Assembly (NCBI RefSeq): GCF_009668025.1
Contig: NZ_WJXZ01000014.1
Span: 640,448-704,447 of the forward strand
Length of the DNA stretch: 64,000 nucleotides
Reading direction: 5' to 3'
DNA from: Larkinella terrae
GTDB taxonomy: Bacteria; Bacteroidota; Bacteroidia; Cytophagales; Spirosomataceae
A program made the translations under genes and the position numbers. Position 1 is the stretch's first letter, and every line of letters begins with the position of its first letter. Below are positions 1-64,000 of the stretch, in pieces. The notes under the pieces are model-generated. The model was not told the DNA's origin. It saw only the letters and a list, made by a program, of their open reading frames with translations, and ran no database searches.

Positions 1-1
1 C

Positions 2-913
2 ACGTTCTGGTTTACCATTGAACTGAAGGAAACGCTGATCAGTCCGACCAGTCAGAAATCCGATCAGCCCGAAATTTCCCTGCAAAATGTTTTCAAAGAT
101 CACCGCCCGTATCTGCTGCTGGTGGATGACAACGCCGTCAACCGGAAAGTAGCCAGCGAAATTCTGAAAAAATCGGGTTGCGAGGTCGATACGGCTTCGA
201 GTGGGCAGGAAGCCATCGACAAAGTAACGGCGGCCATCACCCAAAAGGGCAAACCGTATGAACTGATTTTCATGGATATTCAAATGCCCGATATGGACGG
301 CGTTGAAACCACCGTGAAACTCCGGGGCCAGTTTAACAACCAGTTGCCACCGGTTATTGCCATGACGGCCTATTCGATGCGCGAGGATCGGGACCGGTTT
401 TTGAGCCAGGGCATGGACGATTACATTGCCAAACCCATTCGGGCACAGAGCCTGATTGCCAAGGTGAAGGAAACGGTAGATGCCCGGAAAGAATTCCGGG
501 AAGCGGCCCAGATGCGTTCCAAACAACTGGAAACCATCCGCGAGCCGGAAATGCCGATGATCGATGCCGAAATAGTCGGTCAGCTGGAGCAGGTCGGCGG
601 CTGGGATCTGGTGGTCTCGATTTACGAAGATTTTGAACTGGAAGCCACCACGCTCGTGCAGGAATCGATACAGGCGTTTGCCGTTGGCGATATACCGACC
701 GTGAAGAGCCACCTGCACACGCTCAAAGGCAGCGCCGGAACCATCGGCGTGGCCCGGATTGCGCAGATTGCCCGCGATGCCGAAGCGAAATTAAAGGTAA
801 GCGACATCAGTTCGCTGGCCGATGACTTGCAACTGCTGGATCGGGACTTTAAGGTATTTTTAAATGACTATAAAACCGCCCTGGAAAAGTTAGTGGCCGA
901 GAAAGCCGGATAA
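2..913 (+). CDS. Hybrid sensor histidine kinase, C-terminal part (receiver + HPt)
   Basis: The 5' end is cut off by the window. The reading frame is open from base 2 and the first residues (TFWFTIEL) are the end of a histidine-kinase ATPase domain. A receiver domain follows at about residues 38-155, with an acidic pair (VDDN), the phospho-acceptor Asp in MDIQMPDMDG and the conserved Lys in AKPI. A C-terminal HPt domain (about 185-295) carries the phospho-accepting His in LHTLKGSAGT. This is the layout of a multi-step phosphorelay kinase that passes phosphate from His to Asp to a second His and then to a separate response regulator. The input domains and signal lie outside the window. The next gene starts 12 bases downstream. 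The domain calls are direct; the signal sensed is unknown. Confidence 0.93.
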   Translation, partial: TFWFTIELKETLISPTSQKSDQPEISLQNVFKDHRPYLLLVDDNAVNRKVASEILKKSGCEVDTASSGQEAIDKVTAAITQKGKPYELIFMDIQMPDMDGVETTVKLRGQFNNQLPPVIAMTAYSMREDRDRFLSQGMDDYIAKPIRAQSLIAKVKETVDARKEFREAAQMRSKQLETIREPEMPMIDAEIVGQLEQVGGWDLVVSIYEDFELEATTLVQESIQAFAVGDIPTVKSHLHTLKGSAGTIGVARIAQIARDAEAKLKVSDISSLADDLQLLDRDFKVFLNDYKTALEKLVAEKAG

Positions 914-925
914 ATTGCAGACCTG

Positions 926-1324
926 ATGCCAACCTCCCGTCAACTTATTTCGTCCGGCTCTCCCTGGGAGCCGATTGTAGGATACAGCCGTGCCGTTCGG
1001 ATCGGCAATTTGATCGAAATCGCGGGGACCACCGCCATGGACGGAGATAAAGTAGTGGGACGTGATAACCTTTACGAACAAACCCGGTTTATACTACAAA
1101 AAATAGCCGCGATTCTAAACGAAGCCGGAGCCTCGTTAACTGACGTGGTGCGTACACGGATGTACGTTACCGACATTTCGCAGTGGGAAGAGGCCGGAAG
1201 GGCGCACGGTGAGTTTTTCAAAGACATCCGACCAGCCGCTTCGATGGTGGAGGTAAGTGCACTTATTTCCCCCGATTTGCTCATCGAAATCGAAGTTACG
1301 GCGGTTGTCAGTCCATTTGGATAA
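926..1324 (+). CDS. Rid family (YjgF/YER057c) protein lacking the RidA arginine
   Basis: A 132-residue protein with the whole Rid fold, including NLIEIAGTTAMDG, RTRMYVTDI and the C-terminal EIEVTAVVS strand. Classic RidA enzymes hydrolyse reactive imines and enamines such as 2-aminoacrylate, using an Arg in a P-A-R-S motif before the VEV strand. Here that place reads RPAASMVEV, so the Arg is replaced by Ala. This points to one of the Rid subfamilies without demonstrated imine deaminase activity. The gene lies 12 bases behind the sensor kinase gene on the same strand and may be co-transcribed. Family is certain from sequence; substrate is unknown. Confidence 0.88.
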   Translation: MPTSRQLISSGSPWEPIVGYSRAVRIGNLIEIAGTTAMDGDKVVGRDNLYEQTRFILQKIAAILNEAGASLTDVVRTRMYVTDISQWEEAGRAHGEFFKDIRPAASMVEVSALISPDLLIEIEVTAVVSPFG

Positions 1325-1384
1325 CTAATTTCCAAATTAGCTGGCCTGATTGTAAAACCCGTTCGGTGTTACGGTTTAAAACTG

Positions 1385-1392
1385 TATTTTTG
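1385..1392 (+). promoter_or_regulatory. Candidate -7 promoter element for the HxlR gene
   Basis: TATTTTTG matches the Bacteroidota -7 consensus TAnnTTTG in full. No good TTG -33 element lies at the usual distance, only a weak TTC around 1362. It would start transcription near 1399, about 60 bases before the HxlR start codon. Confidence 0.4.
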
Positions 1393-1446: not shown

Positions 1447-1459
1447 GTAAGCATAACGA

Positions 1460-4346: not shown

Positions 4347-4384
4347 AGTTTTAAAATCTCAGAACTAAGCAATCTCAGCTAGGC

Positions 4385-4424
4385 AAAAGCGCCATTTACT
4401 AACCCGTCAGTAAATGGCGCTTTT
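4385..4424. terminator. Bidirectional terminator
   Basis: Perfect 16-bp arms: AAAAGCGCCATTTACT at 4385-4400 and its complement at 4409-4424, with an 8-base loop and A/T tracts on both outer sides. It separates the convergent lipoprotein and VOC genes. Confidence 0.9.
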
Positions 4425-4440
4425 GTTTATCAAAATCGTT

Positions 4441-7086: not shown

Positions 7087-7095
7087 TTAGTTTCT

Positions 7096-7172
7096 AGTTT
7101 AAAGTTCAGGGTTTATAGTTGCTGATACGAATATTACATGATTCGGCAACTATAAACCCTGAACTTTAAACT
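7096..7172. repeat. Inverted repeat with 27-bp perfect arms
   Basis: The left arm (7096-7122, starts AGTTTAAAGTTCAGGG) and right arm (7146-7172) are exact complements around a 23-base loop. The words AAAGTTCAGGGTTTATAG and TATAAACC are related to those in the repeats at 34269 and 62957. It lies between the convergent GT-C/TPR and rny genes, so here it could end transcription both ways, although no long T run follows. Confidence 0.9.
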
Positions 7173-7178
7173 AATTTA

Positions 7179-12150: not shown

Positions 12151-12306
12151 CTATGATTACGGTGATGGACTATGATTACGGTGATTTTGATGATGGAAAA
12201 TGATGCGTTGTCTCGTACAATCATTGACAATCATTGACAATCATTTTTTAACCTCATTCCGAAACCTCATCCTGCATCATCAAAATCATCAAAATCACCG
12301 TAATCA
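12151..12306. repeat. Inverted repeat of GATTACGGTGATTTTGATGA words
   Basis: The left arm around 12153-12196 contains GATTACGGTGAT twice plus TTTTGATGATGG. The right arm around 12268-12306 carries the complements (CATCATCAAAATCATC, ATCACCGTAATCA). Between them lie three tandem ACAATCATTG units. The stop codon of the DUF1684 gene (minus strand) lies in the right arm. The gap is co-directional, between pheT and the DUF1684 gene. Confidence 0.85.
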
Positions 12307-12927
12307 CTGGTCGTATTTCTCGCCCGCTCGAACCTCGACAGGAAGCGTGTTTTCGGCCGGGGGGAGCGGGCAGGCGTATTCATGATTGTAGGCGCAATAA
12401 GGGTTATAGGCTTCATTGAAATCAAGAACCAGGCGGTTTTCCTTCGCGTCGTCGGGCTTGAAATCGAGGTATCGGCCACCCCCGTAGGTTTCTTTTCCGC
12501 TCGTTTTGTCTTTGAACAAAATCGACAGTGTATTGTCGTGTTTCAGAACCAGCAAACGGCAAACCTCATCGTGAAGCTTAAAAACCGCATGGGCGTATTT
12601 TTCGTACACTTCCTCGCTGCCGTCGGTCAGGTGAACGACCAACTTTTTCCGGTCGGCGAAGGGTTCCAGACGGGCCGAAACGCGGTATTCCGGGTCAGGA
12701 TTGAAATAAACCAGGCTCTTGAATTTGGCTTTATCGGTAAACGGCGACTCGCTGCTGGTGCGGAAATACTCATCTTTGTCTTTCCGTTTTTGCGCCACTT
12801 CCGCGCGATACGTTTCCGGATTGGTGACCGCCGGAGTATCTGTGTTACCGGAATCAAAAAAAGAATAGTAAATGATTGCCAGTACGATCAGAAACAGACC
12901 CACCAGCACAAAACGGTTCCGAGGCAT
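12304..12927 (-). CDS. DUF1684 domain-containing protein, membrane-anchored
   Basis: 207 residues. An N-terminal hydrophobic helix (FVLVGLFLIVLAIIYYSFF) anchors the protein; the rest is the DUF1684 fold, recognised by SSESPFTDKAKFKSLVYFNPDP early and by GGGRYLDFK, DFNEAYNPYCAYNHEYACPLPP near the end. The conserved YNPYCAY...YACPLPP block is the family hallmark. The biochemical role of DUF1684 is not known to me. The gene is upstream of pheT on the same strand with a 180-base repeat-filled gap, so co-transcription is doubtful. Confidence 0.85.
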   Translation of the reverse strand: MPRNRFVLVGLFLIVLAIIYYSFFDSGNTDTPAVTNPETYRAEVAQKRKDKDEYFRTSSESPFTDKAKFKSLVYFNPDPEYRVSARLEPFADRKKLVVHLTDGSEEVYEKYAHAVFKLHDEVCRLLVLKHDNTLSILFKDKTSGKETYGGGRYLDFKPDDAKENRLVLDFNEAYNPYCAYNHEYACPLPPAENTLPVEVRAGEKYDQ

Positions 12928-16789: not shown

Positions 16790-16796
16790 GTAAATA

Positions 16797-16850
16797 GCGA
16801 ATAACGAATGTCGAAAGGATCTTACGCTTCGATATTCGTTATTCAATGTT
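16797..16850. repeat. Inverted repeat of the GAATAACGAATATCGAA family
   Basis: The left arm GAATAACGAATGTCGAA (16799-16815) pairs with TTCGATATTCGTTATTC (16828-16844), 16 of 17 positions. The loop is 12 bases. It sits between the co-directional rhodanese and antitoxin genes. Related words occur at 24753-24838 and inside mutA at 31563-31600. Confidence 0.85.
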
Positions 16851-16885
16851 TAGTGTTCTATATTGAAAAGATGAGTGATTGCTCA

Positions 16886-16947: not shown

Positions 16948-17148
16948 ATGGAGACGATCGAAATAGAACTGACGAATCAAAAGGCTCTGAAATTATTGCA
17001 GGATCTGGAAGATCTTAATCTGATTAAAGTAATAAGGAGAACGGAAAAGAAGTCTTCTCTGCGCGGTAAAATACAAACGCAAATGACTGAAAAGGAGATA
17101 GATAGACAATTAGCGTCAATTCGTGACGAATGGCAGAGAGCTATTTGA
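16948..17148 (+). CDS. Putative antitoxin of a PIN-domain toxin
   Basis: 66 residues from METIEIELTNQKALKLLQDL. Short, charged and mostly helical, with a Lys/Arg-rich middle (VIRRTEKKSSLRGK) and an amphipathic C-terminal helix (EKEIDRQLASIRDEWQRAI) suited to wrapping a PIN toxin. No named antitoxin family is certain. The evidence is its place: it overlaps the PIN gene by 19 bases, as is normal for type II toxin-antitoxin pairs, and has its own promoter-like element upstream. Base composition is more AT-rich than the neighbours. Confidence 0.7.
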   Translation: METIEIELTNQKALKLLQDLEDLNLIKVIRRTEKKSSLRGKIQTQMTEKEIDRQLASIRDEWQRAI

Positions 17149-17507
17149 TCGATACTAGTGCCGTTATCAAATACCTGAATGGCACATTTCCGGAAAATGG
17201 TCTTTTGCTGATCGATGAAATTGTCGATAAGAAATGTTCCATTTCATTTATTTCAGAAATCGAATTGCAAGTTTGGAACCCAAGTAATCCAGAAGACGCC
17301 GTTGTTTATCAATCTTTTATCAAGGGCTCAGAGATAATTGGCCTTTCGCCCGCAATTATTAGCGAAACCGTACGAATTCGTAAAGAATGTAAGGTAAAGC
17401 TGCCTGATGCTCTTATAGCGGCCACAGCCCTTACAAATGGATGGGTACTTATCGCAGATAATGATAAAGACTTCAGTAGAATGAATACCCGGTCTGACCT
17501 ATATTAA
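17130..17507 (+). CDS. PIN-domain toxin (VapC-like ribonuclease)
   Basis: 125 residues. PIN-domain acidic residues are all visible: Asp in YLIDTSAVIKYL (residue 8), Glu in SEIELQVW (about 43), Asp in KLPDALIAATAL (about 92) and Asp in IADNDKDF (about 110). VapC toxins are Mg-dependent endoribonucleases, usually cutting tRNA or rRNA, and are neutralised by the partner antitoxin. The start overlaps the antitoxin gene by 19 bases. It is convergent with miaA, and the 37-base gap leaves little room for a terminator. The active site appears intact. Confidence 0.88.
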   Translation: MAESYLIDTSAVIKYLNGTFPENGLLLIDEIVDKKCSISFISEIELQVWNPSNPEDAVVYQSFIKGSEIIGLSPAIISETVRIRKECKVKLPDALIAATALTNGWVLIADNDKDFSRMNTRSDLY

Positions 17508-19230: not shown

Positions 19231-21246
19231 ATGAAAGCACGTTTCCCCGAAATCGTATGGCGCAAACAGGTTCAGCTCGTGATCCTGTTTTTATTTTGCC
19301 TTTCCGCAGCGGCCCAGCAACCCGACGAGGGTGTCGCGGCCTGTCAGCATACCCGCTTAAACTATTTCGGTTCGCTGGCGAAAACCAGTCGCTCGGCCCG
19401 CATTCAATACCCCGGCGACGCGACTATCGACGTGACGTATTACAAACTCGACCTGAACATTACCTACACACCGAATTATCTGCGCGGGGCTGCGACTGTC
19501 GGGCTGAAAAGCGCGGCTGACAACCTAAGCCGGTTTTTCCTGGATCTGTCAAGTAGTCTGAAGGTTGATTCGGTGAAAACCGGGGCGCAAAAGCTCGTTT
19601 TTTCGCAGCAGGACAATCAGCTTTCCATCACGCCTACGCAGCCTCTCGGCAAAGGCCAGGCGCTGGCCGTTACGGTTTTTTATCAGGGTGTGCCGGGATC
19701 GACCGGTTTGGGAAGTTTTGTGTTCGGCACCCACGGTTCTCAAAACCAGCCGGTCATCTGGAGCTTGAGCGAGCCGTACGGTTCCCGCGACTGGTTCCCG
19801 TGTAAAGACACCCCCGCCGACAAAGCGGATTCGTCGGACGTCTGGATTACGGCACCCAAACAGTTCGTTTCGGTTTCGAACGGCAGGCTGGAAAAAATGA
19901 TCGAAAATGCGAACGACACGCGCACCTATCGCTGGCGAAACCGCTACCCGATTGCCAATTACCTGATTTCGGTGGCCATGAGCAATTACGCGCTTTATGA
20001 GCAGACGTTCCGTCTAACTCCCACCGATTCGATGCCGGTGACGCATTACGTGTATCCCGAAGCGCTGACTGACAATTTCCGGAAAACGCTCGATCAAACC
20101 ACGAATATGCTGGATGTATTCACGAAATACTTCGGACCGTATCCGTTTTTGAAGGAAAAATACGGCCACGCGCAATTTGGCTGGGGTGGTGGCATGGAAC
20201 ATCAGACCATCAGCTCGATGGGCGCTTTCAACTCCGATATTATGGCGCACGAACTGGCACACCAGTGGTTTGGCGATAAAATTACGTGTAAAACCTGGGA
20301 GCATATCTGGCTCAATGAGGGCTTTGCGTCCTACGCGGAGGCTTTATATCGGGAAGCCACCGGCGGAACCGCATCCTACCGCTCTTACATGAACGCGTAT
20401 TTGATCCTGGCCCGCCGGGCACGCGGAACGATATTCGTGCAGGACCTGACCAATGTCGACAACGTTTTTGATGCCAATCGGACGTATTACAAAGGCGGTA
20501 CCGTTCTGCACATGCTCCGGGGCGTGGTCGGCGATCAGAAGTTCAGGGAAATTCTCCAGAAATACGTGGCTTCGCCTTTGGCCTACGGTTCGGCCACGAC
20601 CGAGGATTTTGCCGCCATTGCATCGCAGGTGTACGGACAGCCGCTCGACTATTTTTTTAAGCAGTGGATTTATGGCGAAAATTATCCGACGTATCAGGTC
20701 AAATGGAGCAGCAGTCCCGTCGGCAGCCAGCCCAATCGATACCGGGTGCAACTGCGGCTGCAGCAAAGCACCGGCACTACCAACCCGACTTTTTTCACCA
20801 TGCCGGTTCCGGTGAAAGTGCTGACCTCGGTGGGTGACACGACCATCACGGTTTTTAACAACAGTGCTGATCAGACGTTTGAGCTGCCTGTTCGGGGGCA
20901 ACCGACTGAAATTCAGATTGATCCGGATAGCTGGATTTTAAAGCAGGTTGAAGTAACCGAAGTGATTACCGCCCTGAACGACCCGGTTCCCGGCACGCAG
21001 CTGACGGTTTTGCCCAATCCGGCCCGCGATCAACTGACGGCCCAGATCGATGTCGCCAAACCCTTTACGGGACGCCTGACGTTGACAAATCTGGCGGGGC
21101 AGGAGGTGATTACCTTGTCCGACCGGCCGTTTGCAACCGGCCGCCATACCATCGCCTGGCCGGTGCAGCAACTGCCCGTCGGCCGCTATCAATTGACGCT
21201 CACAACCGGCAAAAACCGGGTGACGAAGGCGGTGCTGATTGAATGA
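19231..21246 (+). CDS. Secreted M1 family metallopeptidase with T9SS domain
   Basis: 671 residues with signal peptide (VILFLFCLSAAAQQ). The M1 N-terminal beta domain covers about 50-260, the substrate-binding GGMEH motif is near 320, and the zinc site HELAH near 340 is followed 18 residues later by the third ligand Glu in NEGFASYAE. It is therefore an active-site-complete aminopeptidase. The GAMEN motif of classic M1 enzymes is replaced by GGMEH, as in other Bacteroidota secreted M1 peptidases. The last 80 residues (LTVLPNPARDQ... KNRVTKAVLIE) are a T9SS sorting domain. Its stop codon lies within the inverted repeat at 21243. Confidence 0.93.
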   Translation: MKARFPEIVWRKQVQLVILFLFCLSAAAQQPDEGVAACQHTRLNYFGSLAKTSRSARIQYPGDATIDVTYYKLDLNITYTPNYLRGAATVGLKSAADNLSRFFLDLSSSLKVDSVKTGAQKLVFSQQDNQLSITPTQPLGKGQALAVTVFYQGVPGSTGLGSFVFGTHGSQNQPVIWSLSEPYGSRDWFPCKDTPADKADSSDVWITAPKQFVSVSNGRLEKMIENANDTRTYRWRNRYPIANYLISVAMSNYALYEQTFRLTPTDSMPVTHYVYPEALTDNFRKTLDQTTNMLDVFTKYFGPYPFLKEKYGHAQFGWGGGMEHQTISSMGAFNSDIMAHELAHQWFGDKITCKTWEHIWLNEGFASYAEALYREATGGTASYRSYMNAYLILARRARGTIFVQDLTNVDNVFDANRTYYKGGTVLHMLRGVVGDQKFREILQKYVASPLAYGSATTEDFAAIASQVYGQPLDYFFKQWIYGENYPTYQVKWSSSPVGSQPNRYRVQLRLQQSTGTTNPTFFTMPVPVKVLTSVGDTTITVFNNSADQTFELPVRGQPTEIQIDPDSWILKQVEVTEVITALNDPVPGTQLTVLPNPARDQLTAQIDVAKPFTGRLTLTNLAGQEVITLSDRPFATGRHTIAWPVQQLPVGRYQLTLTTGKNRVTKAVLIE

Positions 21247-21320
21247 ACAATGAATAATGAACAATGGACAATGAATAAATACGTCAGCCGTTCATTGTTA
21301 ATTATTCATTGTTCATTTAA
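21243..21320. repeat. Inverted repeat of AATGAACAATGAATAATG words
   Basis: The left arm (about 21243-21271) is made of ATGAACA/ATGAATA/ATGGACA units; the right arm (about 21291-21319) is its complement with one or two mismatches. The gap is convergent. Both flanking genes (M1 peptidase and BNR protein) end with a TGA that belongs to an arm word. Confidence 0.9.
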
Positions 21321-22767
21321 TACGAATCGGTTTTTCAAAATCCGCTTTCATTTCCGCCGGTAATTGAAACACCTGCCCCTGCTGGTTGCTGAAATAGAGG
21401 AAAGAAGCCGACGGTTTTCGGGCGTTGCCATCCGCCCAGAACGCGTAAAAACCGGAATGAGCCGCCACCGGCCGACGCGGGTACGTGTGGTTTCGGACGC
21501 TATGCTGCGTAACGGTTTTCACTTTCTTCCAGGTTTTTCCGGCATCGCGGCTTTCCAGCATCGCCAGTTCGCCACCCGTGCCAAACGGCTGCGGACCGGC
21601 TTCGACCGAACCAATGATTCGCCAAAGGTTTCCCTCTACATACAGCGAACCCATGTCGTAGTTGTGGTCCGATTGGGTAACGGAATGAATTTCCCATTGC
21701 TGGCCGGTCCAATGGGCGACGTGCCATTCGTAAGGCCCGTTTTCCGGACCCGGTTCCGGCCCCTTGCTGGTGATATACAGAACAACAGGGCGGTTTTTGG
21801 TGTCATAATTGACATCACCGATGTACACATTCCGGTGCATTTTCCGGTAATCTTTGACCAGCGCCGGATTGAGTGTGTCTTTTAGCGGCAGTTGAACCGG
21901 TTTTCCGTCGGCCGTGTGCCAGCTTTTGCCGAAATCATCGGTTTCCACGTAATACAGATTGGTGCGGTAATCGAGCCCGGCCCCGACTTTCGTGTTCGGG
22001 TGGTAATTAAACGCGCTGCCAATTTTGTTTCCCTTTTGGCCGCTGCTCTGATAATGACCTTCTTCGATCACCGCAATATCCTGCCAGTTGGTCCAGGTTT
22101 TACCGTCCGGACTGGTGATGTAAGCGATGGTCCGGCGGGGTTTATTGGCTCCGTAAAGCAGAACGTTTCGGTCGTAATGTGTCATCAGATTGAAAAAACC
22201 GCGTCCGTTCTGGTAATAACTTTGCACGTAGGAAAAATTCGAGAAGGGCACGGTTTCGCCTTTTTCGTCCCGGCGGGTGGCAGCGATTCGGTCGAAGGTT
22301 TCGATGTCGTACGGTCTTCGACTCCGGTGAATGAACGACGGCCGCTCGGTGCCGTGCGAGGTCGAGAAAATCCAGATATAGCCCTGATTATCAATCTGAA
22401 TAATCGGATTGTCGTGGGCGTCGTCGGTCTGTTTGTTGAGTAAAAGCGTGGGTCGCGACACCATCCCGGTTTTGTGATCGAAGAATCCGATCAGGTGACA
22501 CAACTCGCGGGAAGTGGAGTCGGTGATGCCCCCGTAGCAGAAGAACGTGCGTTCAACGGCGGGTGCATAGACCGAAAACGGGTAATGATTGGCCGGATAC
22601 GTCCCCAGACCACCGCTGTATTTGTAGGCATATTCGTTTTTCGTTGCACCGATGAAATACCAGATTCCCCGGTAACCTGCGGCTTTTTGATTGAGCGTTT
22701 CAACCTGCGAATGCGCCGAGAGGGTGATAAGAAAACCGCTGATAATCAGTAAGCTGCGAATGGTCAT
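21313..22767 (-). CDS. Secreted BNR-repeat family protein
   Basis: 484 residues with signal peptide (SLLIISGFLITLSAHSQ). The mature protein fits the BNR-4 family of six-bladed propellers, with Asp-box-like segments (SPDGKTWTNW, TDDFGKSWHT, SRDAGKTWKKV) and YRGIWYFIG near the N-terminus. Members of this family are predicted glycoside hydrolases or polysaccharide lyases acting outside the cytoplasm, sometimes on ulvan or other acidic glycans. Its start overlaps the stop of the NFACT gene by 4 bases (ATGA), so translation is probably coupled even though the functions look unrelated. Confidence 0.8.
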   Translation of the reverse strand: MTIRSLLIISGFLITLSAHSQVETLNQKAAGYRGIWYFIGATKNEYAYKYSGGLGTYPANHYPFSVYAPAVERTFFCYGGITDSTSRELCHLIGFFDHKTGMVSRPTLLLNKQTDDAHDNPIIQIDNQGYIWIFSTSHGTERPSFIHRSRRPYDIETFDRIAATRRDEKGETVPFSNFSYVQSYYQNGRGFFNLMTHYDRNVLLYGANKPRRTIAYITSPDGKTWTNWQDIAVIEEGHYQSSGQKGNKIGSAFNYHPNTKVGAGLDYRTNLYYVETDDFGKSWHTADGKPVQLPLKDTLNPALVKDYRKMHRNVYIGDVNYDTKNRPVVLYITSKGPEPGPENGPYEWHVAHWTGQQWEIHSVTQSDHNYDMGSLYVEGNLWRIIGSVEAGPQPFGTGGELAMLESRDAGKTWKKVKTVTQHSVRNHTYPRRPVAAHSGFYAFWADGNARKPSASFLYFSNQQGQVFQLPAEMKADFEKPIRIK

Positions 22768-24371
22768 GGGTTAGAAGTTTTGAGTAATCCTTCGTCTTTG
22801 GGTACCACCAGAATCACTTCCTCTTTCTCAACTTTCACCTGGCCGGCGGCTAACCCTTTGGGTTTGCGAACAAATTTCTTGGGGGTGTAAATGACCGGGC
22901 AAAGTGATTCCGTCCGGCGTTTCGAATACCAGGCCGCCAGTTCGGCCGCCCGCTCGATAACGGTTTTGGGGAAGGGTTTTCCGGCTTTGTATTTGATGAT
23001 TACGTGCGAACCCGGCACATCGCGGGCGTGGAGCCAGAGGTCGTCTTTGTAGGCGTATTGCTGGGTAAGCAGGTCGTTGTTTTTCGCGTTGCGGCCAATC
23101 AAAATCACAAAACCCTCGTGAGTAACCTGCTTGAAGAGCGGGGCCGTGCCGTCGGCGGCTTTCTCTTCTTTGATTGGGTTGGCTTTCAGGTATTTCCGTA
23201 ACTCCCGCAACGATTCGATGGGTTCGATGCCCGCGATCTGCTGCTGAATTTCCTGCATTTCCTGCTCCCGGTTTTCGAGTTGTTCCTGGAGCAGCGTGGT
23301 TTCTATTTTTTCGTTTTTGGCCTTTCGGTAATAATGTTCCGCATTTTTCTGCGGTGTCAAATCCGGTTTGAGCTTGATTTTGATGGGGGCATTCCGGTAA
23401 AAATCGTCCAACTCCACCACTTCGGGCGAGCGCGCTCCGGGGCTTTCGGGAATCTGGTGCAGATTGGCCATCAGAATATTCGCAACTTCCTCGTTCTTAA
23501 CGGCTTCGTCCAGGCCGATGAGCCGTTGCAGATTGGTGTCGATATAAGCCTGCGCCTTTTTTAAGCGTTTTTCCAGTAACCGCAGCGCTTCCCCTTTCTC
23601 GCGGCTCAGCGTATTTTGCCCCATGAACGCCGAGTAAAACCGGTTGCTGGCGGCCATCGGATCGGTAAATTCCTGCCGGATTTCGCCGTAGGGCAGGAGC
23701 GAGAGCGCAGGTTTATGCTGAAAAGTGGTCAGGTAAAACCGGGGATGTTCCAACTGCTGAACGGTTTCCTGAATCAACTGCCATTTTTCGAGAGCGGTTT
23801 TCTCCCGAAGCCCATTTTCCTCCAGGTAAGAATTGACCAGCTTCCCGAAGGTTGGAAACAGCTTTCGGTGATCAAAACCGCTTTGCCCGTAGGCTTCCCA
23901 CGATTGGTCGAGCGGCCGGTCAAGGGCCGATAGCAGCAGTTGGGTATCGCTAACGAGCTTATTATTGAACAATTCGACGACCTCGTCCTGCGAGAAAACG
24001 AGCAGATTGGGGCGGTTTCCGAAGAACTTGAACAGCAGCGTAAAACCGCCTTCGAGGGTAATTCCCAGGCAGCGTTCGTTCAGAAAATGGCGAACAGCCA
24101 CAACTTCCCGGTCGTACCATTCCTCGAACAGATCAACGCTATTGATGCGCGCGCGCTGGATGCTTTCGGGAAACAAAAGCCCTGAAAAGTCGGGCCGCAG
24201 GGTGGCTTTGATGAAAAACGGGCGGTAAAAATTGATCTTTCCCCGGGCGTGGGCAAACACCAGCACCAGCTCGTCGCGATCCTGACTGAAACATTCCATG
24301 AATTTCAGGCCGGTGAGCTGCGGTTCCAAGGCAGGGGCAAGCTGGCGGAGAAAATAATAATTGGTGTGCAC
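22764..24371 (-). CDS. NFACT/RqcH family ribosome quality-control protein
   Basis: 535 residues. The NFACT-N domain (about 1-210) starts MHTNYYFLRQLAPALEPQL; a coiled-coil hairpin follows (about 260-400), and the NFACT-R RNA-binding domain is at the end (FVILIGRNAKNNDLLTQ, LWLHARDVPGSHVIIKY). These proteins bind stalled 50S-peptidyl-tRNA complexes; bacterial RqcH recruits tRNA-Ala and adds C-terminal alanine tails that mark the stalled peptide for destruction. The older name is fibronectin-binding protein. The DxR motif linked to tailing activity could not be placed with confidence. It is the first gene of a two-gene unit with the BNR protein. Confidence 0.85.
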   Translation of the reverse strand: MHTNYYFLRQLAPALEPQLTGLKFMECFSQDRDELVLVFAHARGKINFYRPFFIKATLRPDFSGLLFPESIQRARINSVDLFEEWYDREVVAVRHFLNERCLGITLEGGFTLLFKFFGNRPNLLVFSQDEVVELFNNKLVSDTQLLLSALDRPLDQSWEAYGQSGFDHRKLFPTFGKLVNSYLEENGLREKTALEKWQLIQETVQQLEHPRFYLTTFQHKPALSLLPYGEIRQEFTDPMAASNRFYSAFMGQNTLSREKGEALRLLEKRLKKAQAYIDTNLQRLIGLDEAVKNEEVANILMANLHQIPESPGARSPEVVELDDFYRNAPIKIKLKPDLTPQKNAEHYYRKAKNEKIETTLLQEQLENREQEMQEIQQQIAGIEPIESLRELRKYLKANPIKEEKAADGTAPLFKQVTHEGFVILIGRNAKNNDLLTQQYAYKDDLWLHARDVPGSHVIIKYKAGKPFPKTVIERAAELAAWYSKRRTESLCPVIYTPKKFVRKPKGLAAGQVKVEKEEVILVVPKDEGLLKTSNP

Positions 24372-24461
24372 GGGCGAAATGGGTTTCGGTTCACAAACTT
24401 ACTCATCCGAACAATTGCAACGGACGGTCGGTTAACCTTTCTCACTAAATTAACCAAGGCC

Positions 24462-24722
24462 ATGGCAAATAATAAAACGACCGATCAGCCGGGTTCAAAT
24501 GATAAACAGGCAAATTCCAAACGAACCCGCGACTATGAAGCACGCGATACGTCGGCAATGACGACTAATATGGAGAAAATGCGCTCGAATCAAAACAAGA
24601 GCAAACAGGGACCGGAGGAGGACCACACGCATAAACCCAAAGCCCAATTGCAGGAAGAGCGGGGAGGGCATGGCCACAGCGGACACAGCAGCTCGCGGAG
24701 TGGCAGCGATTCGGGAAACTAG
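24462..24722 (+). CDS. Small highly hydrophilic protein, unknown
   Basis: 86 residues from MANNKTTDQPGSNDKQ. Composition is dominated by Asn, Lys, Gln, Glu and Ser, with a His/Gly/Ser-rich tail (ERGGHGHSGHSSSRSGSDSG) and no hydrophobic core, so it is probably disordered. It is divergent from the NFACT gene. Family not recognised. The absence of stop codons and codon pattern in this frame support it being real, but no motif does. Confidence 0.5.
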   Translation: MANNKTTDQPGSNDKQANSKRTRDYEARDTSAMTTNMEKMRSNQNKSKQGPEEDHTHKPKAQLQEERGGHGHSGHSSSRSGSDSGN

Positions 24723-24749
24723 TTTTCGGGAAAATCAGTAAAAGGAAAA

Positions 24750-24838
24750 AAATTGAATAACGAATATTGAATAGCGAAGTAGCGTTATTCGCTTCATTAT
24801 TTCGATATTCGTTATTCAATATTCATTATTCGATATTT
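24750..24838. repeat. Inverted repeat of the GAATAACGAATATTGAA family
   Basis: The left part (24753-24772, TTGAATAACGAATATTGAAT) pairs with words in 24803-24824 (ATATTCGTTATTCAA). A smaller hairpin with GCGAA and TTCGC arms sits in the middle. It occupies nearly the entire gap before the epimerase gene, whose frame is open through it. The gap is co-directional. Confidence 0.85.
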
Positions 24839-24859
24839 TCCTATACTTTCCTAACCCTT

Positions 24860-32408: not shown

Positions 32409-32590
32409 TTTTAATGATGGTTTGGATGGCTGAAAATGGTTGGATGATTAAAAATGGTTTGAATGGTTAAGAATGGCTGAATGGTTGAAAATGGTTAGAT
32501 GGTTTGTCCAATCATCCAAACCATTTTAATCATTCAAACCATTTTCAGCCATTCTTAGCCATTCAAACCATCCAGCCATCTAAACCATTT
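32403..32590. repeat. Long inverted repeat of ATGGTTTGAATGGTTAAG words
   Basis: The left arm (about 32409-32503) is a chain of ATGGTT, ATGGCT and GATGATT units. The right arm (about 32511-32590) is a chain of their complements (AACCATTTT, CAGCCATT, AATCATCC). The arms pair imperfectly over about 80 bases around a short loop near 32505. It lies in the divergent gap between mutA and dnaA, starting at the mutA start codon, so it would form the mutA leader. Confidence 0.9.
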
Positions 32591-34269: not shown

Positions 34270-34408
34270 AGGTTGACGGTTTATAGTTTACGGTTGGCTG
34301 ACGCATTCGGTGTTCGCTATTCAAAATTCGTTCGGGGTCGCTCGTGTGATTCGCTATTTGGAGATGCACCAGCCAACCGTAAACCCAAAACCGTAAACTA
34401 TAAACCTC
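34269..34408. repeat. Inverted repeat of GGTTTATAGTTTACGGTT words
   Basis: The left arm (34269-34300) contains GGTTTATAGTTTACGGTTGG; the right arm (34370-34408) has its complement plus one extra CCGTAAACCCAAAA unit. The 70-base loop contains TTCGCTATTC words like those in the 16797 family. The gap is co-directional, between dnaA and the first FemAB-like gene. Related to the repeats at 7096 and 62957. Confidence 0.88.
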
Positions 34409-46163: not shown

Positions 46164-46196
46164 AAACCTGTAAGGTTTTAAAAACCTTACAGGTTT
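46164..46196. repeat. Palindrome AAACCTGTAAGGTTTT and its complement
   Basis: Perfect 16-bp arms (46164-46179 and 46181-46196) around one central base, in the convergent gap after the DUF3500 gene. It may act as a terminator. It shares CTGTAAGGT with the hairpin inside mutA at 31080. Confidence 0.9.
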
Positions 46197-47678: not shown

Positions 47679-47769
47679 AGTTATTTCGCAGAGTTTCGCC
47701 GAGAATGCGAAGTGTAGCGGAGACTCTGCTTAACTTTGCTTTTCTTCGCGTACCTCCGCGAAATAACCT
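47679..47769. repeat. Inverted repeat of the TTATTTCGCAGAGTT family, copy 1
   Basis: The outer arms AGTTATTTCGCAGAG (47679-47693) and CTCCGCGAAATAACCT (47754-47769) pair, as do inner words around TAGCGGAGACTCTGC. It lies in the divergent LysR-glpD gap and ends 8 bases before the glpD start codon, so the glpD ribosome-binding region falls in or next to the right arm. Confidence 0.88.
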
Positions 47770-52277: not shown

Positions 52278-52377
52278 TGTTTCGCAGAGTTTAGCGGAGG
52301 AAAGTAGAGTTAAGCAGAGTTTTTTAGTTTTCTCCGCTGAACTCTGCGTAATCTCCGCTTAACTCCGCGAAATAACT
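52278..52377. repeat. Inverted repeat of the TTATTTCGCAGAGTT family, copy 2
   Basis: The left arm (TTTCGCAGAGTTTAGCGGAG, 52280-52299) pairs with AATCTCCGCTTAACTCCGCG plus AAATAAC (about 52349-52376). Inner words AGAGTTAAGCAGAG and TCCGCTGAACTCTGC pair too. It lies in the divergent gap between the P-type ATPase and GH105 genes, 18 bases before the GH105 start. Confidence 0.88.
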
Positions 52378-52395
52378 TTCTTTCTAATAAAGCCC

Positions 52396-54301: not shown

Positions 54302-54446
54302 AGTTATTTCGCAGAGTTGAGCGGAGTAAATCAGAGTTAATCAGAGAAATCCCCTGATGAACCCTGATTCCCTCTGATCCACCCTGTATAATAACCAAAG
54401 CTCCGCTTCACTCCCTTTTTTCTCCGCTTGGCTTCGCGAAATAGTA
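54302..54446. repeat. Inverted repeat of the TTATTTCGCAGAGTT family, copy 3
   Basis: The left arm AGTTATTTCGCAGAGTTGAG begins 1 base after the GH105 stop; the right arm TCCGCTTGGCTTCGCGAAAT ends near 54446. The interior is a second inverted repeat made of TCAGAG/CTCTGA words. The gap is co-directional, upstream of the TetR gene. Confidence 0.88.
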
Positions 54447-54461
54447 GCTTTAAAAACTTTT

Positions 54462-57416: not shown

Positions 57417-57442
57417 AAGGTATACCGTAAACCATAAAAAAT

Positions 57443-58371: not shown

Positions 58372-59106
58372 ATGGAAAAAGCAGTCAGTACCAACGCGTT
58401 AACCAAAAAATTTGGCAGCTTCATTGCCACCAATGCCATTACGTTCGACGTGGCCCAGGGCGAAATCTTCGGATTTCTGGGCGCGAACGGGGCCGGGAAA
58501 ACCACGGCGATGCGGATGCTGTGCGGGTTATTGAAACCGACTTCCGGCGAAGCCAGCGTGGCCGGGTTTGATGTTTACCGGCAATCTGAGAAAATCAAGC
58601 AGAACATTGGCTACATGAGCCAGCGGTTTTCGCTGTACGAAGATTTGACGGTGCGCGAAAATATCCGGTTTTACGGCGGCATCTACGGCTTGCGCCGGGC
58701 GGACATTCCGGCCAAAACCGATCAGATTTTGCAAAAACTCGGCATCGAATCCGTGGCTGATTCGCTCGTGGCCTCATTGCCACTCGGCTGGAAACAGAAA
58801 CTCTCGTTTTCGGTGGCCCTGATCCACGAGCCCCGAATCGTGTTTCTGGACGAACCGACCGGCGGGGTCGACCCAATCACGCGCCGACAGTTCTGGGATT
58901 TGATCTACGAAGCCGCCCACGGCGGAACCACGGTTTTTGTGACTACGCACTACATGGACGAAGCCGAATACTGCCACCGCGTCTCGATCATGGTCGATGG
59001 CGTCATGAAAGCACTCGACACCCCGGCAGGTCTGAAAACCGCCTACAACGTGGACTCAATGGACGCGGTCTTCCAGATCCTGGCCCGGGGGACATCGACG
59101 AAATAA
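58372..59106 (+). CDS. ABC transporter ATP-binding protein 2
   Basis: 244 residues from MEKAVSTNALTKKFGSF, 5 bases after the previous gene's stop. Walker A GANGAGKTT is near 40, the signature region reads ASLPLGWKQKLSFSVAL (a degenerate LSGGQ in which SGG is replaced), and Walker B IVFLDEPTGGVD near 160 is followed by THYMDEAEYCHR, as in drug and antibiotic ABC-2 exporters. The altered signature may mean one composite ATP site is weak, as in many heterodimeric pairs. Its stop codon marks the left edge of the 35-bp-arm repeat at 59106. Confidence 0.95.
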   Translation: MEKAVSTNALTKKFGSFIATNAITFDVAQGEIFGFLGANGAGKTTAMRMLCGLLKPTSGEASVAGFDVYRQSEKIKQNIGYMSQRFSLYEDLTVRENIRFYGGIYGLRRADIPAKTDQILQKLGIESVADSLVASLPLGWKQKLSFSVALIHEPRIVFLDEPTGGVDPITRRQFWDLIYEAAHGGTTVFVTTHYMDEAEYCHRVSIMVDGVMKALDTPAGLKTAYNVDSMDAVFQILARGTSTK

Positions 59107-59206
59107 ACGCCCTGACAGCGGTCGAAGACCCTGTCAGCGGCTGTAAGCATATTCAACTCGGTTTAATTCTGCCGCTGACAGGGTCTTCGACCGCTGTCAG
59201 GGCGTT
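59106..59206. repeat. Inverted repeat with 35-bp perfect arms inside the efflux operon
   Basis: The left arm (59106-59140) and right arm (59172-59206) are exact complements; each arm holds two versions of CCCTGACAGCGG (one as CCCTGTCAGCGG) separated by TCGAAGA. The 31-base loop has no structure. It lies between the second ATPase gene and the first permease gene of one operon. Confidence 0.95.
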
Positions 59207-60325: not shown

Positions 60326-61437
60326 ACCGGATTCGATACATGGTTGAAAAAGAAATCCGGCAACTCCGCCGGAACCCGGTTTTGCTCCGGATCATGCTGG
60401 CGGCCCCGATCATGCAGTTGATTCTGCTGTCGTACGCGGCTAATTACGAAGTGAAAAACCTGAACATCGCCGTTGTCGATGGCGACCACACGACGTATTC
60501 GCAGCGGCTGGTTAGCAAGTTCCGGCACCTGACCAATTTCAACCTGAGCGGGTATCTGCCCAACGAGAAACAGGCCCGGCAAACGCTGCTGGCGGGCGAT
60601 GCCGACCTGGTGCTGGTAATTCCACCCCATTTTGAGCGGGACCTGGAGAAGGAGGGAAGCGCGGCCGTGCAGTTGCTGCTCAACGCCATCGATGGTTCCA
60701 AAGCCGGAATTGCCAACGGCTACGCCACGGCCATCATCCGGGATTTCAACGCCGATGTGGTGGCCGAAACGAAGGTCGTAGCGCCGGGCACGGTTCCGCA
60801 ACTGGACATTGAGAATCAGTACTGGTACAACCCGAAACTGGAATACAAAACCTTTATGGTGCCGGGCGTTTTGTTCGAACTGTTGCTGTTGGTAGGTGGT
60901 CTGGTGTCAGCGCTGAATATTGTGCGGGAAAAAGAAATCGGAACGATGGAACAGTTGAACGTGACGCCGATCCGCAAGCACGAATTTATTCTGGGCAAAT
61001 CGATTCCGTTTGTGGTTATCGGGCTGGTGCTGTTCACGATCGGGCTGCTGCTGGGGCGGTTTTTATTTCAGGTGCCGCTGGTGGGCAGCCTGGCGCTGAT
61101 GTACGTGTTTGCGGTTTTATTCCTGATATTGTGCGTTGGTCTGGGCCTGCTCATTTCGACACTGGCCGAAAACCAGCAGCAGGCGTTGTTTGTCTCGTTT
61201 TTCCTGCTCGTCTTATTCATTCTCCTGAGCGGTTTGTTTGCTTCCACCGAAAACATGCCGGTCTGGGCGCAGTGGCTCAATCTCATTAACCCGCTGAAAT
61301 ACATCATCGAAGTGGGCCGGAACGTGATGCTGAAAGGCAGCACCTTTGCGGATGTGAATCGGCAGTTTGCCGCGCTGGCGGGCATGGCCATCGGGTTGCT
61401 GCTGCTGGCGTCGTGGCGGTATCGGAAGACGGTTTAA
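60322..61437 (+). CDS. ABC-2 type permease 2 (YbhR-like)
   Basis: 371 residues, same layout as the preceding permease: one N-terminal helix, a periplasmic domain (about 45-175), then five helices, with REKEIGTMEQLNVTPIRKHEFILGKSIPFVV near 195. It overlaps the first permease by 4 bases and closes the operon; a repeat of the TTATTTCGC family begins 3 bases after its stop. E. coli YbhFSR exports cephalosporins, Na+/Li+ and dyes; the substrate here is unknown. Confidence 0.93.
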   Translation: MNRIRYMVEKEIRQLRRNPVLLRIMLAAPIMQLILLSYAANYEVKNLNIAVVDGDHTTYSQRLVSKFRHLTNFNLSGYLPNEKQARQTLLAGDADLVLVIPPHFERDLEKEGSAAVQLLLNAIDGSKAGIANGYATAIIRDFNADVVAETKVVAPGTVPQLDIENQYWYNPKLEYKTFMVPGVLFELLLLVGGLVSALNIVREKEIGTMEQLNVTPIRKHEFILGKSIPFVVIGLVLFTIGLLLGRFLFQVPLVGSLALMYVFAVLFLILCVGLGLLISTLAENQQQALFVSFFLLVLFILLSGLFASTENMPVWAQWLNLINPLKYIIEVGRNVMLKGSTFADVNRQFAALAGMAIGLLLLASWRYRKTV

Positions 61438-61439: not shown

Positions 61440-61555
61440 GTTTGGTGAGTTGTTTCGCGGAGTTAAGCGGAGGAAATGGAGTTAAGCAGAGATTATACAT
61501 AACTCCGCTTAACTCTTCTTTTCTCTGCTTAACTCCGCGAAACAACTCACCAAAC
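61440..61555. repeat. Inverted repeat of the TTATTTCGCAGAGTT family, copy 4
   Basis: Arms of 33 bp (61440-61472 and 61523-61555) pair with one mismatch. The inner part is the family word GTTGTTTCGCGGAGTTAAGC; the outer 10 bases, GTTTGGTGAG, are not shared with the other three copies yet are still mirrored exactly on the other side. Confidence 0.92.
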
Positions 61556-62945: not shown

Positions 62946-62956
62946 ACGGTTTTTGG

Positions 62957-63072
62957 TTTACGGTTTTCAGTTTACGCCGGGCCGACGTTTCGGTGCGGTT
63001 CCCCGCCGGAACTGGTGCACTCATAAATGCCGAATAGTCAATATATTAACCCCGTAAACTGAAAACCGTAAA
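62957..63072. repeat. Inverted repeat of TTTACGGTTTTCAGTTTACG words
   Basis: The 20-bp arms TTTACGGTTTTCAGTTTACG (62957-62976) and its complement (63053-63072) are perfect. A degenerate CGGTTTTTGGTTTA unit precedes the left arm. The gap is co-directional, between the MFS and deacetylase genes. Same family as 34269 and 7096. Confidence 0.9.
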
Positions 63073-63101
63073 ACTTTCCTCCCATCTCTCAACTTTTTCG
63101 G

Positions 63102-64000
63102 ATGAAACGACGCATCGTCCTTGGTTTTCTGTTGATAACCAGTGTCTTGTCGGGCGCAGTCGCCCAGATTGTGCGAAAACCGATTCCCGATAAGCTGGTC
63201 GTGCTGACGTTTGATGATGCGCCCGTTACCCACGCGACGGTAGTTGCTCCGTTGCTAAAGAAATACGGTTTTGGGGCGACGTTCTACGTCTGCGAATTCC
63301 CGCCCGATTTTGCCGATAAAAAGAAGTACATGAGCTGGGAGCAAATCCGGGAACTGGATCGGATGGGTTTCGAAGTTGCCAACCATACGCTGACGCACAG
63401 CAACGTGGCAAAACTCTCGAAGGCGCAGTTCCGGGCGCAACTCGATTCCCTCGAAGCCCGCTGCAAAACCTACGGGATCCAAACACCACTGACCACCTTT
63501 GCGTACCCCGGCTACGGCATCAGCCCCATTGCGTACGACGTTTTGAAGGAAAAAAACTACCAGTTTGCGCGGGTGGGCGGGGCGCGGGCCTACGATCCGA
63601 AAACCGATTATCCGTACCTGATTCCGAGTTACAGCACGACCGAGCCCAATAACTACGACAAAGAGCGGATTTTCAGCGCGTTTCAGCAGGCCAAAGACGG
63701 CAAGGTGGTCGTCATTACGATGCACGGCGTTCCCGACTACGCGCACGACTGGGTAACCACGCCCCCGGCCATTTTTGAAGCGTATCTGAAATACCTGCAC
63801 GACAACAAGTATAAGGTGATTGCCCTGCGCGATCTGGAACAATACGTCGACTACAAGGAGGCCCTGCGCACGATTCCGCCCCCACCGCCCCCGGTTTCGA
63901 TTCGGGTCGATCTAGACAAACCAAAAGGGCGAATGGAGCCGATTTGGGCCTGGTTTGGCTACGATGAACCGAATTATACGTACATGAAAGACGGCAAAAA
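63102..64000 (+). CDS. Polysaccharide deacetylase family protein (3' end outside window)
   Basis: 299 codons are visible before the window edge. It starts MKRRIVLGFLLITSVLSGAVAQ, a signal peptide. The NodB domain has motif 1 VLTFDDAP (catalytic and metal Asp pair), motif 2 NHTLTHSNV (two metal His), FAYPGYG and a late His in TMHGVPDY. Carbohydrate esterase family 4 enzymes remove acetyl groups from chitin, xylan or peptidoglycan. A Pro run (PPPPPPV) near residue 267 joins it to a further C-terminal part that is cut off. It follows the MFS transporter. Confidence 0.9.
   Translation, partial: MKRRIVLGFLLITSVLSGAVAQIVRKPIPDKLVVLTFDDAPVTHATVVAPLLKKYGFGATFYVCEFPPDFADKKKYMSWEQIRELDRMGFEVANHTLTHSNVAKLSKAQFRAQLDSLEARCKTYGIQTPLTTFAYPGYGISPIAYDVLKEKNYQFARVGGARAYDPKTDYPYLIPSYSTTEPNNYDKERIFSAFQQAKDGKVVVITMHGVPDYAHDWVTTPPAIFEAYLKYLHDNKYKVIALRDLEQYVDYKEALRTIPPPPPPVSIRVDLDKPKGRMEPIWAWFGYDEPNYTYMKDGK

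Follow-up and report, generated by a model that had tools for sequence, protein, structure and literature searches.

REP, REPIN and RAYT systems are characterised in PMC6006769 and PMC3733652 as short, non-coding, extragenic hairpins present in many copies, with inverted arms and a variable loop, some of them near stop codons. TAACTGA heptamer repeats occur in Beggiatoaceae, Cyanobacteria and some Bacteroidetes; they are mainly intergenic, patchy over distant groups and of no evident mechanism, and are direct repeats of one word, which in the main genome mostly precede start codons by a few nucleotides (PMC4679880). In Neisseria and Pasteurellaceae, DNA uptake sequences, highly conserved words of 9–11 nt tied to uptake, are dispersed, paired in inverted orientation as terminators and enriched in convergent gaps after genes (PMC1852404). 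The MITE BrickBuilt of Porphyromonas gingivalis, also in Bacteroidota, is a non-autonomous element with tandem repeats of 23-nt units, inverted ends, a leader and a tail (PMC4596501). Finally, template switching has been described for RNA genes as a mechanism that makes and keeps hairpins, creating or repairing perfect stems with no need for G-U intermediates (PMC8794818).

We have analysed a window of 64,000 nt from Larkinella terrae (assembly GCF_009668025.1, contig NZ_WJXZ01000014.1, positions 640,448 to 704,447 of the forward strand). Our analysis shows that two populations of extragenic hairpins are overlaid in it, one REP/REPIN-like, a kind that RAYT (Y1) transposases mobilise, and the other, the main one, made of what we call word hairpins. 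A word hairpin is a non-coding inverted repeat in which each arm is a tandem array of degenerate words, with heptads wherever a period is clear and 8–10-mers in some cases; its 5′ arm is mostly G-rich, its loop is variable and a T-tract is absent. Among the open-access papers listed by our literature searches none describes this class, as judged by titles or the beginnings of abstracts, and we regard word hairpins as a variant of the REP-like extragenic hairpins, a known kind. They share the general features of REPs and REPINs listed above, and their genome has Y1 genes with REP-type repeats alongside, but their arms mostly lack an internal palindrome and were not seen at the 15 Y1 loci examined. 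Like TAACTGA repeats they are patchy, mainly intergenic heptads; unlike them they are inverted, degenerate, divided into many families and located chiefly just past stop codons. The many degenerate families and the missing T-tract distinguish them from uptake sequences, the short words from BrickBuilt, and the dispersal from the template-switch hairpins of RNA genes.

Inverted repeats in the window

The initial annotation had reported inverted repeats of one shared architecture at 14 positions, and all 14 are present. Our strict criterion, an ungapped stem score of at least 16, was reached by nine sites (7095, 12173, 21238, 24747, 32454, 34278, 59106, 61440 and 62957); the other five scored 15 (46164 and 52280), 14 (16791), 11 (47680) and 10 (54302), the last two being backed by relatives with a matching word family in the orthologous gap. 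RNA folding gave z-scores of -5.6 to -18 for 10 of the 14 sites, with none of 200 shuffles folding equally well. No Rfam match at gathering score was obtained within the window, and a known RNA family was rejected on this ground. The shared architecture holds for 12 sites, which are word arrays, and not for 59106 and 46164, which are without them. Genes were called with our own hexamer scorer, no annotation being used. Coordinates below are window positions, and no strand is assigned to the hairpins.

Eight word hairpins adjoin or overlap stop codons. The hairpin at 7095..7173, with an ungapped stem of 28 bp, lies in a convergent gap 8 bp past the stop at 7086; the orthologous gap of the relatives G003 and knui holds a terminator-like hairpin instead, preceded by an A-run and followed by a T-run. 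The hairpin at 12173..12306 (TGATTACGG words) lies in a minus-strand co-directional gap and overlaps the stop of the gene at 12304-12909; an inverted repeat scoring above 7 was not found in this gap in G003 and knui. The hairpin at 16791..16852 (GAATAAC heptads) starts 1 bp past the stop at 16789, and that at 21238..21321 (AATGAAC heptads) fills a convergent gap and overlaps both gene ends; in knui the corresponding gap measures 38 bp and the hairpin is absent. After the stop at 34269, the hairpin at 34272..34406 combines GTTTACGG heptads with an inner part made of GGCTGACGC; its gap contains a weak repeat of matching words in L. rosea (score 9), and in G003 and knui nothing that scores above 7. 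An imperfect hairpin of CGCAGAG words (54302..54450) immediately follows the stop at 54300, related words being found in L. rosea and knui. The hairpin at 61440..61555 (CGCGGAG words) starts 2 bp past the stop at 61437. That at 62957..63072 (TTTACGG heptads), 11 bp past the stop at 62945, has words in common with humicola; the other six relatives have different hairpins or none, the gap being 7 bp long in C7.

Four word hairpins lie in divergent gaps. The earlier list of divergent sites was correct for the three that it named and incomplete, as it omitted the hairpin at 24747..24839 (GAATAAC/GAATATT heptads), 20 bp before a predicted start at 24860, with related words in knui and G003. The three others are at 32417..32572 (ATGGTTTGA words), 8 bp before a minus-strand start at 32408 and with its family kept in weaker form in L. 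rosea; at 47680..47767 (CGCAGAG words), imperfect, 10 bp before the start at 47778 and stronger in knui and C7 than in its own genome; and at 52280..52382 (CGCAGAG/AGCGGAG words), 13 bp before the start at 52396, with its word family also in L. rosea, knui and C7. As to the earlier sorting into co-directional and convergent gaps, the gap of 16791 can be called convergent only by discounting the 125-aa ORF at 17130-17507 as a gene.

Two sites are REP-like. A perfect palindrome, AAACCTGTAAGGTTT, forms a 15-bp hairpin with a 3-nt loop in a convergent gap at 46164..46196; it is absent from L. rosea and C7, where the gaps are 35 and 43 bp. At 59106..59206, within an ABC-transporter operon, a REPIN-like pair is made of two inverted 36-nt arms around a 29-nt loop. 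Each arm folds on itself, as in the palindromic-arm definition of REPs, and related matches occur throughout the genome. The orthologous gap is 3 bp long in C7, arboricola and G003, and no target-site duplication was evident when the gap at 59106 was inspected by eye. The window also contains a single-arm remnant of CCGTAAACC words (57417..57442), at a place where C7, humicola and knui have whole word hairpins, and, for contrast, a terminator-like hairpin off the earlier list (4384..4425; loop 8, T-rich 3′ flank).

Distribution and composition of word hairpins

In an 864-kb sample of the same genome we found 113 strong inverted repeats, 109 of them intergenic and 4 within called genes, and none turned up when all 591 gaps were dinucleotide-shuffled five times. 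Divergent gaps are poor in such repeats (10 in 101 gaps, as compared with 74 in the 390 co-directional gaps and 25 in the 100 convergent ones). A heptad period shows in word arms: at an identity of at least 60%, the best lag was 7 in 47 of 131 word arms of at least 22 nt, and 61 of the 131 were periodic at some lag from 5 to 13, against 6 shuffled arms and 0 of 55 REP arms. The G/C bias of the 5′ arm is opposite in the two classes. With classes divided by a pattern list drawn up after the arms had been seen, which leaves a few terminator-like and REP arms in the word class, and with some orthologous hairpins entering the pool more than once (151 distinct arms among 153), G exceeded C in 126 of 153 word arms (18 the reverse, 9 ties), whereas among 60 REP arms G exceeded C in 6 and C exceeded G in 46.

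Word hairpins are tightly placed. In co-directional gaps of the own genome with at least 60 bp of slack, all 14 lie within 20 bp of the stop codon, where 2.8 would be expected; for the pooled genomes the figure is 29 of 38, against 8.0 expected, and none of the 38 comes as near as 20 bp to the start that follows. Their density per kb is 1.76 in convergent, 0.80 in co-directional and 0.19 in divergent gaps. In stretches of two other genera, chosen for the words, ten GTTTACGG-type hairpins occupy co-directional gaps, and nine of them are at most 13 bp from the stop. An automatic split defines word arms by the absence of self-folding, which makes a comparison of self-folding between its classes partly circular, and 3 of the 18 own-genome arms that it calls REP are word-like; it gives a like picture, with 65 of 79 within 20 bp and mismatches of 36 G·T and 30 A·C. 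This placement raises the question of targeting or tolerance and bears on 3′-end formation in Bacteroidota.

At least six T in eight nucleotides followed 3 of 151 word-hairpin stem ends, the background being 5.2% of 749. Rho-independent terminators were rejected as the nature of the word hairpins for the missing T-tract; together with the REP-like pair inside the ABC-transporter operon and the four divergent sites, this lack bears out the earlier view that a pure terminator function is insufficient. Word hairpins and canonical terminators avoid each other (odds ratio 0.37 in convergent gaps, p=0.03; 0.45 in co-directional gaps, p=0.016), which hints at a role at the RNA level.

Conservation and turnover in relatives

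Conservation is mixed. The 61440 hairpin is present in eight of the eight species compared, and other sites are replaced or absent in relatives. The counter-hypothesis proposed with the initial annotation, hairpins conserved as ordinary terminators and none in divergent gaps, is thus not fully borne out, as divergent hairpins do exist. Of 12 word hairpins compared with L. rosea, seven have kept their family (three of them decayed), four face another hairpin and one faces neither; REP-like hairpins turn over faster. We considered a preserved hairpin slot in which families replace each other above chance, and rejected it for too few cases: with REP and word hairpins taken together, of 18 gaps occupied in the own genome and without a shared family, 5 hold a different hairpin in L. 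rosea, versus 14 of 81 own-empty gaps that are occupied there. The wider synteny comparison, with C7, punicea and humicola, covered only 11 orthologous gaps each. In one hairpin, the loops of C7 and humicola are alike but for two differences, and either arm has a single 7-bp indel between them. Since the indels remove different words, this case shows slippage and not the copying of one arm from the other.

Proposed DNA-level upkeep versus selection on RNA

Word hairpins are observed to be dispersed in many copies, patchy between species, placed within about 20 bp of stop codons and replaced by other hairpins at some orthologous gaps. Our best explanation, to which we give about an even chance, is that their two arms stay matched through a process acting on DNA and that they are tolerated beside stop codons. 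A hairpin forming during replication would allow one arm to template the other by template switching, and heptads would be gained and lost by slippage. A strong hairpin beside a stop could do no harm or bring a slight benefit, by delimiting or shielding the 3′ end of the mRNA or by standing in for a terminator. It would therefore persist there, while hairpins placed elsewhere would be removed. For new copies, our guess is a hairpin-recognising single-strand DNA enzyme acting in trans.

On the transcript strand, the mismatches of pooled co-directional word stems are 49 G·T to 50 A·C, and those of the own genome alone 20 to 18, whereas fixed stem windows of 30 control tRNAs gave 40 G·T to 3 A·C. 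Because G·T equals A·C in word stems, unlike tRNA stems, wobble-tolerant selection on RNA does not appear to keep their pairing; the excess of G·U over A·C that marks structured functional RNA is lacking in the pooled stems. Long, well-paired stems are the usual sign of RNA function. Equal G·T and A·C in many stems argues for a DNA-level origin and makes word hairpins a natural test set for the birth and persistence of stems; searches for non-coding RNA that rely on covariation could also be misled by them. In 51 of 68 cases the best match to an arm was its own partner (another copy was equally good in 6 and better in 11), a count favoured by the selection of hairpins on arm matching and made with a label that still held some REPs.

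The same counts weigh against functional RNA structures selected on the transcript, such as 3′-UTR stabilisers, RNase III sites or U-less terminators, as do the absence of a T-tract and the other hairpins, or none, in the orthologous gaps of some sister species; we consider this reading rather unlikely. It would account for the position next to stop codons, the ranking of densities from convergent to divergent gaps, the mild exclusion of canonical terminators and the terminator-like hairpin that stands in place of 7095 in two relatives. In E. coli, REPs no more than 15 nt from a stop reportedly stall ribosomes (PMC12306157). As stems have at least 16 ungapped base pairs, a single mismatch may be too mild for selection, and a weak RNA role is therefore still compatible with the counts. 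For the RNA-processing signals proposed initially, the wobble test is likewise adverse, and the stop-codon position still compatible with an effect at the RNA level.

At 61440, both sides have changed in some species in 11 of the 53 predicted pairs; U-A to A-U is one such replacement, and G-C to C-G another. These double changes, with their transversions, and the pooled lack of wobble bias fit a template-switch signature; the different words lost from each arm in C7 and humicola do not. In the 40 predicted pairs of the hairpin there are 17 G·U cells and 8 A·C cells, in a prediction that itself favours G·U, and in the outer 28 pairs 7 and 6, the excess over the whole being a point for RNA function. 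The RNAalifold covariation term is small (-0.56). Retention of this hairpin in eight species resembles that of a functional structure and counts against a DNA-level explanation. Carriage of this hairpin on plasmids was rejected, with no match among 72,556 records.

Dispersal and Y1 genes

Three words of 16–27 bases have 106–165 matches each in the own genome, on many contigs and with both arms and overlapping registers counted, against 0–2 for the same words reversed. Word families are patchy among species and occur in other genera. The proposal of a non-autonomous hairpin element is partly supported by this dispersal and by some orthologous gaps that lack a hairpin or carry one of a different family; for the word class we came upon neither an enzyme nor a target-site duplication nor an autonomous copy, which counts against our best explanation as well. 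We tentatively raise, as possible though not probable, an undescribed class of parasitic or domesticated single-strand DNA elements across Bacteroidota, in which two inverted arrays of short words would be all that is copied. These elements would land by stops, remain intact through copying of arm from arm during replication, and drift as whole families that replace each other within a genus.

It is improbable, in our estimation, that all hairpins, word hairpins included, are REPINs moved by RAYT transposases. Y1_Tnp genes number three in the own genome, each with REP-type arms nearby, and occur in 20 of 20 other genomes; we take them to be RAYTs, a reading of Pfam matches that include other IS200-like proteins. 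A long-loop inverted repeat lies within 1.5 kb of 12 of the 15 Y1 loci examined, and dispersed copies with variable loops are REPIN-like. Nevertheless, none of four word families was present in the 1.5-kb flanks of these 15 loci (3 of 3 in the own genome, 12 of 63 matches elsewhere), genomes with hardly any of the two word families counted have Y1 genes just as the others do, and the G/C bias of word arms is opposite to that of REP arms. A single RAYT-driven origin is thus unsupported by the Y1 loci for the word class, with one loose end outside the 15: in humicola, a GTTTACGG word match at 524996 has a partial Y1 match (G002:C13:524608-524856) some 140 bp away. At one of the 15 loci (L003), a word-type repeat of another kind lies 1.1 kb away.

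Local template switching alone, with common words arising by slippage and drift, would suit the degenerate tandem words and the lack of wobble bias, but is largely refuted by the dispersed word copies and their patchy presence in other genera, and we hold it very improbable; of the initial template-switching proposal, the upkeep of arms is supported and the shared words at unlinked places do not fit. The sequence GGCTGACGC was rejected as an inner core common to all families, since five of eight own-genome contexts inspected carry GTTTACGG-type heptads and one each two other families. It is enriched in intergenic DNA, with 15 intergenic and 3 coding occurrences in L. rosea.

Inverted repeats of two kinds in intergenic gaps

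The 14 inverted repeats listed in the initial annotation for the window (contig C6, positions 640448–704447) were all found, nine with an ungapped score of at least 16 and five with a score of 10–15 (match +1, mismatch −2, loop up to 130). RNA folding of ten of these sites gave z-scores of −5.6 to −18. In an 864-kb sample of the 7.85-Mb L. terrae genome (the window plus further stretches), 113 repeats scored at least 16, with 109 located in gaps and 4 within called genes. Dinucleotide shuffling of the 591 gaps of this sample, run five times, yielded none at score 16. The observation is therefore far beyond chance. The nearest named relatives are Larkinella species, with L. rosea showing 86% identity across 12.6 kb.

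The arms of these repeats sort into kinds. In word hairpins they are chains of tandem degenerate words: among the 131 word arms that reach 22 nt, the best period was a lag of 7 in 47 and some lag in 61, the controls giving 6 for shuffled arms and 0 of 55 for REP arms. REP-type arms are mostly self-folding, and three of them (GTCGCGTTAGCGAC, CCCACGGTTTAAACCGTGGG and CAACCCCGTTGGGGTT) occur near the three L. terrae genes matching the Y1_Tnp transposase domain (Y1 genes). The single architecture originally attributed to all 14 sites thus holds for 12, which are word hairpins, but not for 59106, a REPIN-like pair with related matches at many places, nor for 46164, a short palindrome outside the word class. 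G exceeds C on the 5′ arm of 126 of 153 word hairpins and falls short of it on 18, whereas REP arms have the opposite bias (6 and 46 of 60, respectively). One hairpin of the CGGAG family (locus L095 at about 13.7 kb; contig C6, 233728) is inside out: unlike most, it carries the C-rich strand on its 5′ arm. REP-type CACGGACTTTAGTCCGTG repeats are nested within word hairpins in L. rosea (locus L004, about 11.7–11.9 kb) and L. knui (locus L005, 7.8–8.0 kb), as would result from insertion of one element into the loop of another.

Placement relative to genes

Stretches of seven genomes (L. terrae, L. rosea, L. knui, L. humicola, L. punicea and the relatives C7 and G003) were pooled. The 953 co-directional gaps contain 93 word hairpins, the 243 convergent gaps 48 and the 244 divergent gaps 12, corresponding to densities of 0.80, 1.76 and 0.19 per kb, respectively. 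Where a co-directional gap leaves at least 60 bp free, 29 of 38 start no more than 20 bp past the upstream stop codon, against 8.0 expected if placement were uniform, and none of the 38 ends as close as that to the following start codon. For L. terrae alone, all 14 are stop-proximal (2.8 expected). The same proximity was seen for 11 of 25 REP-type repeats (3.2 expected) and 1 of 11 short-loop hairpins (1.3 expected). In convergent gaps with enough room, a distance of no more than 20 bp to one of the two stops was seen for 7 of 11 word hairpins (3.4 expected, p = 0.017), 2 of 5 REP-type repeats and 5 of 8 short-loop hairpins (2.3 expected, p = 0.033), a proximity that promoter avoidance alone would not yield.

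Our gene calls place a stop no more than 20 bp from each of the ten non-divergent listed sites of the window, and a predicted start codon 8–20 bp from each of the four divergent sites; 7 of the 12 pooled divergent word hairpins are within 20 bp of a start. The gene caller left out a plus-strand ORF at 24249–24722 (157 aa, GTG start), which overlaps the 24372–24859 gap and, if real, would change the gap type of the site at 24747. Hairpins with the AATGAAC word recur between co-directional MacB/FtsX-type permease genes (loci L095–L103, contig C6 of L. terrae, about 235–394 kb), where all six of the neighbouring proteins that were tested have MacB_PCD and FtsX matches. Gene duplication may therefore account for the spread of some copies, despite their differing loops.

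Turnover at orthologous gaps

The 59106 gap, within an ABC-transporter operon (neighbours ABC_tran and ABC2_membrane_3), holds a REPIN in L. terrae and L. punicea, GTTTACGG word hairpins in L. rosea and L. humicola and a nested one in L. knui; stop and start are 3 bp apart in C7, L. arboricola and G003. Across eight species, the 62946–63101 gap contains five hairpin kinds, or is 7 bp long (C7). At the 57417 gap, L. terrae has only a one-arm remnant, and L. rosea, L. knui, C7 and L. humicola have whole hairpins. The 61440 hairpin is found in eight of eight species; in several of them, other hairpins of its CGCGGAG family occur at 47680, 52280 and 54302.

Between L. terrae and L. rosea, 23 of 104 non-divergent orthologous gaps carry an L. 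terrae long-loop repeat scoring at least 14, 12 of them word hairpins (#268 was left out as terminator-like). With families assigned by eye, L. rosea has a same-family hairpin in seven of these 12, strong in four (#46, #135, #154, #183) and weak in three (#27, #134, #277), a different hairpin in four (#47, #125, #182, #186) and neither in one (#188). For REP-type or other palindromes, the family is common to both species in 2 of 10 gaps (#136, #179), against 7 of 12 for words; turnover is therefore faster in the REP-like class.

Upkeep of arm pairing

Stems selected as RNA should tolerate G·U above A·C on the transcript strand. Among 2,814 pairs of word stems in co-directional gaps, G·T (49) is no commoner than A·C (50), and 64 pairs have other mismatches (20 G·T versus 18 A·C for L. 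terrae alone), whereas among 510 pairs in tRNA stems of the same genome (fixed stem windows, 30 distinct tRNAs from 30 loci of 39 matches) there are 40 G·U but 3 A·C, with 6 others, which argues against selection on RNA. Word hairpins may nevertheless act at RNA 3′ ends: they tend to avoid gaps with canonical terminators, and E. coli REPs near stops are reported to affect translation (PMC12306157).

At 61440, both sides changed in 11 of 53 predicted pairs across eight species, including several transversions (U-A to A-U, G-C to C-G, G-C to U-A) with no G-U passage. The partner is more similar than any other copy for 51 of 68 automatically labelled word arms (6 equal, 11 less), although arm matching was the criterion by which these hairpins were picked. 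C7 and L. humicola have one loop in common, with two differences, and each arm differs by a 7-bp unit; heptads were gained and lost in both arms, but different heptads. From the equal G·T and A·C counts and these three observations, we lean towards copying between arms at the DNA level, together with slippage. Such copying has been described for hairpins elsewhere (PMC8794818). The lack of wobble bias and the double changes at 61440 fit the template switching proposed initially; the non-matching heptads show slippage, not copying of one arm from the other. Counting against a DNA-level reading are the G·U excess in the 40 hairpin pairs of 61440 (17 versus 8 A·C cells; 7 versus 6 in the outer 28 pairs) and its small covariation term.

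Distribution and dispersal

Three words gave 112, 165 and 106 matches in the L. terrae genome (both strands, overlapping registers included), and reversed-pattern controls 0, 0 and 2. GTTTACGG matches are abundant in L. humicola (224), L. rosea (151), C7 (134), L. knui (118) and L. punicea (77), and low in L. arboricola (11), G003 (4) and G007 (1). Beyond the genus, they number 50 in G257, 22 in G385, 20 in G393 and 1 in G355, a congener of G257. Of 296 genomes in the phylum, 18 carry the AATGAAC word at no more than 3 mismatches, mostly with few matches each. In 16 stretches of G257 and G393 picked for carrying the words, co-directional gaps contain ten GTTTACGG-type hairpins, nine of which start within 13 bp of the stop and one at 35. 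A further 74 loci (1.13 Mb, nearly all Bacteroidota by title) contain 34 long-loop intergenic repeats, 6 of them periodic, most built from different words again; one repeat, from Fibrisoma limi, belongs to the GTTTACGG family. A 10-kb Saprospiraceae contig (L018) has five long-loop inverted repeats, three scoring 52, 57 and 66 and one with ACAAAG words.

Dispersed copies, patchy distribution and gap turnover partly support the non-autonomous hairpin element put forward in the initial annotation, but an enzyme dispersing the word class, sought at Y1 loci and through the occurrence of Y1 genes across genomes, was not found. All of the 20 additional genomes surveyed have Y1 genes, whether or not they carry the words, and the four word families sought are absent from each of the 15 Y1 loci examined. 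The best account is that word hairpins would form a mobile or once-mobile class, with arms kept paired by copying at the DNA level, and would be tolerated or mildly useful after stop codons.

Beyond the 15 loci, and among the matches listed, the stretch G002:C13:524608-525014 of L. humicola combines a partial Y1 match with a GTTTACGG word match at a distance of about 140 bp. In L. terrae, the Y1 gene of locus L003 (contig C6, 1026399–1029740) is preceded by a compound inverted repeat scoring 36, and a GAGAGACAAGAG word repeat lies at a distance of 1.1 kb.
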